From positions 2,914,001-2,978,000 of the forward strand of contig NZ_CP007139.1 in the NCBI RefSeq assembly GCF_000724625.1: a DNA stretch of 64,000 nucleotides. Direction: 5' to 3'. Origin of the DNA: Fimbriimonas ginsengisoli Gsoil 348. Its GTDB lineage: Bacteria; Armatimonadota; Fimbriimonadia; Fimbriimonadales; Fimbriimonadaceae. Both the position numbers and the translations under genes were made by a program. Below, one piece after another: positions 8,635 through 61,508 of the stretch (the stretch's first letter is position 1; every line of letters starts with the position of its first letter). Under the pieces are notes generated by a model that did no database searches, was not told the origin of the DNA, and saw only the letters and a program-made list of their open reading frames with translations.

Positions 8635-8710
8635 TGGCGGCCTCGGAGGGACTCGAACCCCCGACGCCCTCCTTAGGACGGAGGCGCTCTATCCTCTGAG
8701 CTACGAGGCC
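8635..8710 (-). tRNA. tRNA-Arg (anticodon CCT)
   Basis: The minus strand begins GGCCTCG at 8710 and ends with the pairing CGAGGCC, discriminator G and an encoded CCA at 8635. The D-arm (AGCTCAGAGGATAGAGC), the anticodon stem CCTCC/GGAGG with loop GTCCTAA (anticodon CCT), and the T-arm with GTTCGAGTC are all present. It reads AGG codons. Confidence 0.96.
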
Positions 8711-25431: not shown

Positions 25432-25573
25432 GTGGTCATTTCCTCCGTTTCAATAGCCACGCGTAACCGCGCGGCCTACGAAAAGGAGTGTTGACAACCT
25501 GCCGTTACATCGGCGTTGACGAAAAGGCCACCCTTTTGCGAATAGGTCCAATGGCAAAGTAACGTGGCATGTG

Positions 25574-25687
25574 TATCACGACCATCCTGGTCGTGTTTGC
25601 CTCCCCTACGTCCGTAGGACGTAGGGGAGGCCGGTCTGGAGACCGGCGGTCCGTAGGGGACTACAACCCTTCGCGTTAGTCTCCCCG
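25574..25687. repeat. Hairpin cluster overlapping the AraC gene's stop
   Basis: Contains stem CACGACC/GGTCGTG with loop ATCCT (25577-25595), a perfect stem CCCCTACGTCC with loop GTA, stem CCGGTC with loop TGGA, and a final stem GGGGACTA/TAGTC-CCCC. The first is the reverse complement of a unit in the array at 60778. The 18-mer CTACAACCCTTCGCGTTA (25661-25678) recurs at 27808-27825, and here supplies the AraC TAA stop. Confidence 0.7.
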
Positions 25688-59949: not shown

Positions 59950-60777
59950 ATGAAACAGATCCTCACGCTCATCCTTCTCGTCACCGTAGCGCTTGCCTCC
60001 GCTCAGGACTGGGCGAAGAAGAAGCTGGATGCCTCCCCCCGGCACCAAGAGTGGGTCGAGCTTAAGAACGGCGGCCGCACCGTGAAGGCGTTCGTCGTCT
60101 ATCCCGAGCGGAAGGACAAGGCGCCGGTCGTGATCCTCATCCACGAGATCATGGGGATGACCGATTGGGTCCAGTCCACCGCCGACCAGTGGGCGGAGAA
60201 GGGATACATTGCCATCGCTCCCGACTTTCTCACCGGGATGGGACCGAACGGGGGTCGGACCGACTCGTTCGGCGACCTGAGCAAAGTGCGCGAGGCGATC
60301 AGCGGACTTCCGGCGGACCAGATCACCGGCGACCTGAACGCGGCGTTCGACTATGCGAAGAAGATTCCGAGCGCAAACGGAAAGGTCGCGGTAGCCGGAT
60401 TCTGCTGGGGCGGGGGACAGGCGTTCCGGTATACGACGAACCAGCCCGGTCTCGCGGCGGCATTCGTGTTTTACGGCGTTCCGCCCACCACGGACGCCGA
60501 AGTGGCTCGAATCAAGGCGCCGGTGTACGGCTTTTACGGCGGGAACGATAACCGGATCGACGCCACGATCCCCGACACCGAGAAGCTGATGAAAGCCGGT
60601 GGCAAAGTGTACGAACCGGTGATCTACGAAGGGGCCGGCCACGGCTTCATGCGGGCCGGCGAGCAGCCGGACGCCCAAGAGGCGAACAAGAAAGCCCGCG
60701 ATGCCGCGTGGAAACGAATGCTTGAGATTCTTGGCAAGGGCGACCTGATGGCCGCCCTCACCTGCTGCGACGGCTAG
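59950..60777 (+). CDS. Secreted dienelactone hydrolase family protein
   Basis: 275 residues. A signal peptide (MKQILTLILLVTVALASAQ) leads into an alpha/beta-hydrolase of the dienelactone type: VVILIHEIMGMTDWVQ, nucleophile Cys in AGFCWGGGQ, Asp in YGGNDNRIDATI and His in EGAGHGFMR. Cys as nucleophile is typical of this family. The usual family member is cytoplasmic; the exported form probably acts as a general esterase. AAGGAAGG lies five bases upstream of the ATG. Confidence 0.9.
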   Translation: MKQILTLILLVTVALASAQDWAKKKLDASPRHQEWVELKNGGRTVKAFVVYPERKDKAPVVILIHEIMGMTDWVQSTADQWAEKGYIAIAPDFLTGMGPNGGRTDSFGDLSKVREAISGLPADQITGDLNAAFDYAKKIPSANGKVAVAGFCWGGGQAFRYTTNQPGLAAAFVFYGVPPTTDAEVARIKAPVYGFYGGNDNRIDATIPDTEKLMKAGGKVYEPVIYEGAGHGFMRAGEQPDAQEANKKARDAAWKRMLEILGKGDLMAALTCCDG

Positions 60778-60931
60778 TGGCACTGGCATCTTGCCAGTGG
60801 GTCCCAAGGGCATCTTGCCCTTGGCCCTTCACACGACCGGTACGGTCGTGGGGGTTCATCGGCTGGGAACCGATGCTCCGGTTACACGACCAGGATGGTC
60901 GTGATACACGCGGGCTGGAAGCCCGTGCCAC
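60778..60931. repeat. Tandem array of six hairpins with variable stems and recurring loops
   Basis: Directly after the hydrolase stop: stem CACTGGC with loop ATCTT, stem CCAAGGGC with loop ATCTT, stem CACGACC with loop GGTAC, stem CATCGG with loop CTGGGAA, stem CACGACC with loop AGGAT, and stem CGGGC with loop TGGAA. Identical loops on different stems, and identical stems with different loops, are both present. It fills the whole gap to the convergent DoxX gene. Confidence 0.82.
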
Positions 60932-61338
60932 TACTTGGATCGCCGTATCAGGCGGTCCAAGCTCCATGGGCCGCCGCCGGCGGCGGCGAGGAAGAGGAAG
61001 ACAAAGCAATACGCGACCGCCAGCTCACCCTTATTGACGATCGGATAGAGGCTGCCGGGAGCGTGCACTTTCCAGTAGGCGTAGGCCATCTCCCCGGCCA
61101 TGATGAACGCGGCCGGGCGGGTGAAGAGGCCAAGAAGGAGGAGAATGCCGCCGACCAGCTCGATGGCCCCGCCAATGCCCATCTCCGACGTGAGATTGAA
61201 CGGCATCGGCTTCTCGGCGGGCGGGAAGTTGAAGATCTTCTGCGTCCCGTGCTCTAGGAAAAGAAGCGCAATCACGATCCGGAGAACGCTCTGCAGCTTC
61301 GGCGCCCAGGGGTGCTCATATACTTCGAGTTTGTCCAT
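60931..61338 (-). CDS. DoxX family membrane protein
   Basis: 135 residues with four hydrophobic helices: VLRIVIALLFLEHGTQKIF (the family's first helix with its H-G-x-x-K motif), GIGGAIELVGGILLLLGLF, AAFIMAGEMAYAYW and ELAVAYCFVFLFLAAAGGGPWSLD, which ends in the typical GPG/GPWSLD. DoxX-like proteins are linked to redox and thiol stress; the exact role is unknown. ATG at 61338 chosen; the open frame upstream enters a hairpin array. Confidence 0.9.
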   Translation of the reverse strand: MDKLEVYEHPWAPKLQSVLRIVIALLFLEHGTQKIFNFPPAEKPMPFNLTSEMGIGGAIELVGGILLLLGLFTRPAAFIMAGEMAYAYWKVHAPGSLYPIVNKGELAVAYCFVFLFLAAAGGGPWSLDRLIRRSK

Positions 61339-61383
61339 CTCGCATGGTTGACGACGCAACCGCTTAGAAGGGTCCCTTGGAGT

Positions 61384-61508
61384 ACGTGGCACGGGCGGCT
61401 CGCCCGTGTGTATCCCGCGCAGCTTGCGCGGGCGCTTGGCGGACGTGCGTTCGCCAATTCAGGGGGGAGCCGCCCCTGAGACCCACGGGCGAGCCGCCCG
61501 TGCCACGT
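61384..61508. repeat. Hairpin array bounded by 25-bp perfect inverted repeats
   Basis: Arms 61384-61408 and 61484-61508 are exact inverted copies, and each is itself a palindrome (CACGGGCGGCTCGCCCGTG). Between them lie stem CCCGCGCA with loop GCTTGCGCGGG pairing, TTGGCG/CGCCAA around GACGTGCGTT, and CAGGGGGG/CCCCTG around AGCCG. The array ends 17 bp before the RbsA-like start codon. Confidence 0.82.

Follow-up and report, generated by a model that had tools for sequence, protein, structure and literature searches.

The window analysed here (a 64-kb stretch of DNA, taken whole, from Fimbriimonas ginsengisoli Gsoil 348) contains an array of six perfect or near-perfect hairpins (positions 60777-60931) between two convergent genes, and raises the question of whether such a structure serves the transcripts that meet there, was put together from exchangeable stems and loops, or is a copy of something that moves. 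We consider it highly probable (roughly 0.86) that the array is one copy of a REPIN/BIME-like, non-autonomous mobile element that belongs to the GT[AG]G-tagged REP superfamily and has a pair of hairpins at each end; the case for its mobility is wholly comparative. The window has a G+C content of 60.5% (published value for the strain: 60.8%, PMC4072686) and belongs to a single chromosome of 5,231,762 bp.

Composition of the array and its surroundings

The array had been placed at 60778-60931 in a preliminary description; all six hairpins are real, and the boundaries of the element proved to be one base wider (60777-60931). Its parts, its flanking genes, and a remnant end and a second composite found elsewhere in the window are as follows:

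59950..60777, + strand: upstream gene, dienelactone hydrolase family (Pfam PF01738, E 2.9e-45); its stop TAG abuts the element
60777..60931, + strand: six-hairpin composite REPIN-like element of the form A-B-C-D-B'-A' (alignment and whole-genome model match)
60777..60780, + strand: left terminal tag GTGG, conserved across copies; a G of the tag is the final base of the upstream stop TAG
60781..60799, + strand: hairpin A, CACTGGC-ATCTT-GCCAGTG (8-bp stem, triloop TCT)
60800..60804, + strand: linker GGTCC (5 nt) of the left double-hairpin end
60805..60823, + strand: hairpin B, CAAGGGC-ATCTT-GCCCTTG
60832..60850, + strand: hairpin C, CACGACC-GGTAC-GGTCGTG, of the middle block
60857..60875, + strand: hairpin D, CATCGGC-TGGGA-(A)CCGATG, with a degenerate 3' tag CTCC
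60885..60903, + strand: hairpin B', CACGACC-AGGAT-GGTCGTG
60904..60908, + strand: linker ATACA (TGTAT on the - strand; 5 nt) of the right double-hairpin end
60909..60927, + strand: hairpin A', CGCGGGC-TGGAA-GCCCGTG
60928..60931, - strand: right terminal tag CCAC (GTGG on the - strand), with one base in common with the stop of the - strand gene
60931..61392, - strand: downstream convergent gene, DoxX family (Pfam PF07681, E 5.7e-16); its stop abuts the element
25564..25595, + strand: remnant double-hairpin end (GTGG, a collapsed first hairpin reduced to CATG, TGTAT, CACGACC-ATCCT-GGTCGTG)
61386..61506, + strand: second four-hairpin composite, GC-looped, GTGG...CCAC, of equal architecture

The array fills the convergent gap, as had been proposed, since each of the flanking stops, TAG (60775-60777) and CTA (60931-60933, TAG on the - strand), overlaps a terminal tag by one base. 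The reported composition also stands: the loop ATCTT occurs on two stems (CACTGGC and CAAGGGC), the stem CACGACC carries two loops (GGTAC and AGGAT), and the unit at 25577-25595 joins CACGACC to ATCCT, the inverse of AGGAT. This last unit forms part of the remnant end, which is recovered as a weak match of the covariance model described below (C1:2939564-2939651). Hairpin C is restricted to six-hairpin forms and to mosaics of types 1 and 3, while hairpin D is followed by the tag CTAC in most copies (CTCC in the window copy) and, with the tag GTAG, also stands alone in the genome as a separate REP. The start of the DoxX-family gene is uncertain (61338 or 61392), and the second composite lies 455 bp downstream of the array, between this gene and an ABC transporter gene.

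Folded as single-stranded DNA, the array reaches -51.5 kcal/mol (z = -7.8), and none of 200 shuffled sequences folds as well; as RNA, it gives z-scores of -6.3 and -7.5 on the two strands. No intrinsic terminator (a GC hairpin followed by a T-run) was found within 60600-61100, and a search of the window against Rfam at the gathering score returned no match for the array, the sole match being a tRNA at 8638-8710.

The element across the genome and among relatives

A covariance model built from 16 four-hairpin copies and searched over the whole genome recovered about 114 distinct loci with four- and six-hairpin forms (33 of them spanning at least 140 bp and 66 spanning 95-112 bp), the window copy among them (C1:2974777-2974931, 102 bits). 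The hairpin inventory and the gene calls cover 2.4 of the 5.2 Mb, and the remainder is covered by the model. The element is non-coding, roughly 100-155 bases long, and reads GTGG, hairpins A and B, an optional C-D block, hairpins B' and A', and CCAC, so that two REPs in inverted orientation form the repeated unit. In its four-hairpin form, the order is GTGG, the CACTGGC hairpin, GGTCC, the CAAGGGC hairpin, 8-10 nt, the CACGACC hairpin, ATACA, the CAYGGGC hairpin and CCAC, whereas the six-hairpin copies hold an additional central CACGACC-CATCGGC block. Order and spacing recur at dozens of unlinked sites in both orientations (as seen over 2.0 Mb and then over the extended 2.4 Mb of the inventory), with no strand bias by chromosome half, and full-length copies align at about 90% identity (mean column identity is 90% in 11 aligned six-hairpin copies).

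Among 110 composite ends, 89 carry the tag GTGG (82) or GTAG (7), and most tagged ends consist of two hairpins joined by a 5-nt linker of fixed sequence (GGTCC, seen at 33 of the tagged ends tallied, or TGTAT). Considering that a REPIN has one hairpin per REP, we file the element as a variant that would work like a REPIN. Double-hairpin ends of unlike types are also combined into mosaics, in which type 1 joins, for example, type 2 or a third type (GTAG-CATCGGC-AACCC-CACGACC), and a GC-looped family is present as well, so that the label 'BIME-like mosaic' seems fair.

Read with the tag at the 5' side, the triloop TCC or TCT, closed by a covarying A-T or T-A pair, is present in 63 of 72 first and 52 of 56 second hairpins. 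The loops ATCTT, ATCCT, AGGAT and TGGAA are all such a closing pair around TCT or TCC (AGA or GGA on the opposite strand) and thus are not independent loop modules. The stems vary by compensation: a single slot hosts several stems that differ through paired changes, nine pairs being changed on both sides (3.3 after shuffling, with none of 500 shuffles as high), and sliding the pairing partners as a control yields at most four pairs. Decay across the six-hairpin copies is greatest in hairpin C, which is 86.8% paired (94.8-100% for the other five hairpins).

The location between convergent genes had been pointed out in the preliminary description, and it is typical: of 55 composites placed against genes called with a simple in-house codon score, 23 lie between convergent genes, 25 between tandem and three between divergent ones, with four inside genes (51 of 55 are intergenic). 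Most copies, however, lie right at stop codons: 54 of 71 element ends facing a gene's 3' end lie within 8 nt of the stop, while 3.6 would be expected under random intergenic insertion and 17.1 if gaps were chosen irrespective of their length. Ends exactly 1 nt from the stop form the largest group (18 cases; 0.4 and 2.7 under the same two nulls), and at several stand-alone CATCGGC repeats the TAG of the GTAG tag itself serves as the stop. No flanking direct repeat above the shuffled level, as a target-site duplication would leave, was detected around 35 tagged copies.

The covariance model found no match in 19 congeneric species but gave 24 matches in one genus within the family, and further matches outside the family; such a patchy taxonomic distribution is typical of mobile DNA. 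Among the congeners lacking matches are ones that encode related RAYTs, a point against the mobile-element reading, so that either the stems are RAYT-specific or the families differ. One junction allows a direct comparison: the convergent stops of the CsaA and ErpA genes are separated by -4 to 4 nt in four congeners and have a 102-bp element between them in the genome studied here (in some congeners the pair is missing or the gap is longer, 156 nt in L232). Gap-filling at this site thus amounts to an insertion between stops that were close together beforehand, and for the window pair we infer the same course of events. A DNA search of the window locus in congeners retrieved no orthologous junction, as the neighbouring genes lack conservation within the genus.

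RAYTs with matching ends and RAYTs inside host enzymes

Among the 13 Y1_Tnp matches in the genome, L023 (C1:2235644-2236219) is a RAYT (NCBIfam REP_Tyr_transpos, 87.6 bits against a cut-off of 80) whose closest solved relative is the E. coli TnpArep 4er8, with the HUH and Tyr motifs aligned. It lies between inverted double hairpins identical in kind to the ends of the window element (GTGG-CACGGGC-TTCCA-GCCCGTG-TGTAT-CACGACC... on one side and the inverted counterpart on the other), and it is the sole RAYT found with ends matching that element. The L023 RAYT sits in frame within an alcohol dehydrogenase that is continuous in congeners, and the open frame runs through (559 aa); considering this fusion, its activity is uncertain.

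The genome encodes additional relatives of the L023 RAYT, with 40-45% protein identity to it, at C1:2041540, 1982596, 2556718 and 31820. The last of these, in locus L025 (C1:30551-33787), has inverted double hairpins with different stems (GCGGACG and CCGGGCG) at positions 1164-1220 and 1836-1890 of the locus. At L018 (C1:2309416-2312754), the gene of an IS200-type transposase is located between two CATCGGC hairpins; considered as a partner of the CATCGGC middle block, it falls short of the REP_Tyr_transpos cut-off (18 against 80 bits), and it may or may not mobilise that block.

The end plan extends beyond this genome. In the flanks of 45 related RAYT loci (from Planctomycetota, Verrucomicrobiota, Acidobacteriota, Chloroflexota and others) there are 55 double hairpins as against 2.7 in shuffled sequences, 16 loci have them on both flanks (none in shuffles), and tagged hairpins number 54 as against 8 with a scrambled tag. 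The tag and the TCY loops (mostly TCC/TCT) are held in common, and the stems are the relatives' own. Similarly, a related genus (G023) has four-hairpin composites of equal plan with other stems, together with a RAYT with similar ends.

Architecture, copy number, covariation, identity of the RAYT ends, the lack of target duplication, species-specific presence and an element-free orthologous junction are shown by the comparisons above. The mechanism that we propose starts from two inverted ends, each made of a tag and two hairpins, around a short spacer or a third double-hairpin block. In single-stranded DNA these ends would fold into TCY-triloop hairpins, which a RAYT (a Y1/HUH transposase) would recognise and cleave, moving the composite as a unit and leaving no target duplication; the L023 RAYT is the candidate for this role. 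Insertions would persist chiefly at sites immediately after stop codons, which may be why the elements abut them and are often found in tight convergent junctions.

At least 15 of the 45 relatives share one reading frame with a host protein, which in the embedded cases was recognised by host domains on both sides (Pfam, NCBIfam, or a reading of the continuing host sequence). These cases, together with those from Armatimonadota, include:

ValS with in-frame RAYT: L149, L150
LeuS with in-frame RAYT: L154
AlaS with in-frame RAYT: L158
FabZ with in-frame RAYT: L155, L159, L160, L161
MetH with in-frame RAYT: L168 (isolate genome), L169
HsdR with in-frame RAYT: L178, L179
TPR protein with in-frame RAYT: L167
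Terminal RAYT fusions: UDG4, L184; SpeD, L163
Armatimonadota CarB with in-frame RAYT: L264; L278 (decayed)
Armatimonadota PrmC, terminal RAYT fusion: L265

The genomes concerned are mostly metagenome assemblies. In the five that were checked, no second copy of the interrupted gene was found (ValS in two, LeuS in one and the amino half of CarB in two). All 15 of the frames examined have the HUH motif, and all except L178 have the Tyr motif. In the tree, RAYTs that share a host gene tend to be sisters (ValS, MetH, HsdR and three of the four FabZ cases), which suggests long residence or homing at one site. An AlphaFold model of the FabZ-RAYT fusion, from four sequences, has a mean pLDDT of 44.6, too low for any structural reading. 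On balance, we favour the view that the RAYTs of this clade are double-hairpin-end transposons that reside in frame within host enzymes or as fusions to them, in many cases at one shared site across genera, in an intein-like manner and with no sign of splicing. If so, the host protein would include what seems to be a full transposase domain, the transposon would be expressed from the host gene and could not be removed by crude deletion, and the hairpin arrays would spread as by-products.

Searches of open-access literature turned up no account of RAYTs lying inside host enzymes, and we regard these embedded RAYTs as a more surprising lead than the array itself. RAYTs are usually single-copy and are regarded as domesticated; their in-frame presence in single-copy tRNA synthetases, FabZ, MetH and CarB bears on how they persist for so long, and annotators should be aware that such enzymes can carry a transposase domain.

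Competing explanations and known systems

The array could also be a host-selected, bidirectional RNA element that ends or protects both transcripts at convergent 3' ends, with mobility being past or incidental. The 23 convergent placements, the stable folding of both RNA strands and the stems kept by compensatory changes would all suit such a role, and an effect on transcripts (termination or protection) is possible, although it is unnecessary for explaining the element. We judge this explanation unlikely: the array has no U-tract or terminator-like site, the element is missing from 19 congeneric species, some of which have the convergent CsaA/ErpA pair without it, and its ends are of the very kind that flanks a transposase gene. 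Moreover, hairpin C in the middle has decayed whereas the hairpins of the ends have kept their pairing, a pattern to be expected if it is the ends that count in transposition.

The decay of hairpin C leans likewise against template-switch correction of quasi-palindromes, in which one arm is copied from the other, as the source of the stem covariation in place of transposase-linked selection. Template switching perfects inverted repeats and yields matched changes in both arms, so this known process would also give the paired changes seen here; it leaves the tags, the fixed order, the TCY loops and the RAYT association unexplained, and is compatible with the mobile-element reading, not exclusive of it. 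As a full account we hold it to be very improbable. Just as little credence goes to a modular repertoire, as first proposed, with stems and loops assembled independently at each site. Stems do vary within a slot, one slot takes several loops, and end types are combined (chimeric ends of types 1 and 3 and mosaics), but the order A-B-(C-D)-B'-A' is fixed at about 114 loci, as are spacing, linkers and tags; this order largely refutes the idea, and the reduction of most loops to one triloop and the alignment of full-length copies at about 90% identity tell against it as well. The inventory suggested as a check of the mix-and-match pattern, made over 2.4 Mb with the model covering the rest, returned one element of constant order and spacing.

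The mobile-element reading also finds its closest parallels among known systems. The possibility that the units belong to a known REP family held in part: they are members of the GTAG/GTGG-tagged superfamily, though the family itself has not been described before in the literature compared, as far as the available part of the superfamily's description goes. The available part of that text (PMC3733652) describes GTAG or GTGG terminal tags (the GTGG variant in Opitutus terrae), 6-9 bp stems, short loops, heterodimers, double palindromic TIRs at some RAYT-like genes, and, in the account of Di Nocera et al., repeats beside stop codons with the tag supplying TAG stops. The Fimbriimonas elements agree with this description in all these features; the same part of the text holds no Armatimonadota family and no fixed-order four- or six-hairpin composite. 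The REPINs of Pseudomonas fluorescens are REP doublets that form hairpins, intergenic and RAYT-associated, with compensatory changes common (PMC3116915), and their repeated unit is likewise two inverted tagged palindromes around a short spacer, whereas the Fimbriimonas element has two separate hairpins per end, joined by a 5-nt linker, and also exists in a six-hairpin form that includes a third double-hairpin block. It resembles BIMEs and the E. coli REPtron (TnpAREP) in being a mosaic of several REP types and in its 4er8-related RAYT with HUH and Tyr motifs (PMC8266576, PMC6006769), but the E. coli REPs are single bulged hairpins, where here perfect 8-bp hairpins come in pairs. With IS200/IS605 (TnpA Y1) it has in common a Y1 transposase, hairpin ends and the absence of target duplication, while differing in having the RAYT family in place of TnpA IS200 and inverted double-hairpin ends on both sides. 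The embedded RAYTs recall the ShiLan element of a phage methylase, a selfish nuclease gene inside a host reading frame with no detectable splicing domains, except that the nuclease there is out of frame and the RAYT here is in the frame of the host enzyme (PMC11855218). What the comparison adds is a REPIN layout from Armatimonadota in which each end has two hairpins, with an end plan common to Planctomycetota, Verrucomicrobiota and others, whose double-hairpin ends offer testable substrates for end recognition by RAYTs.
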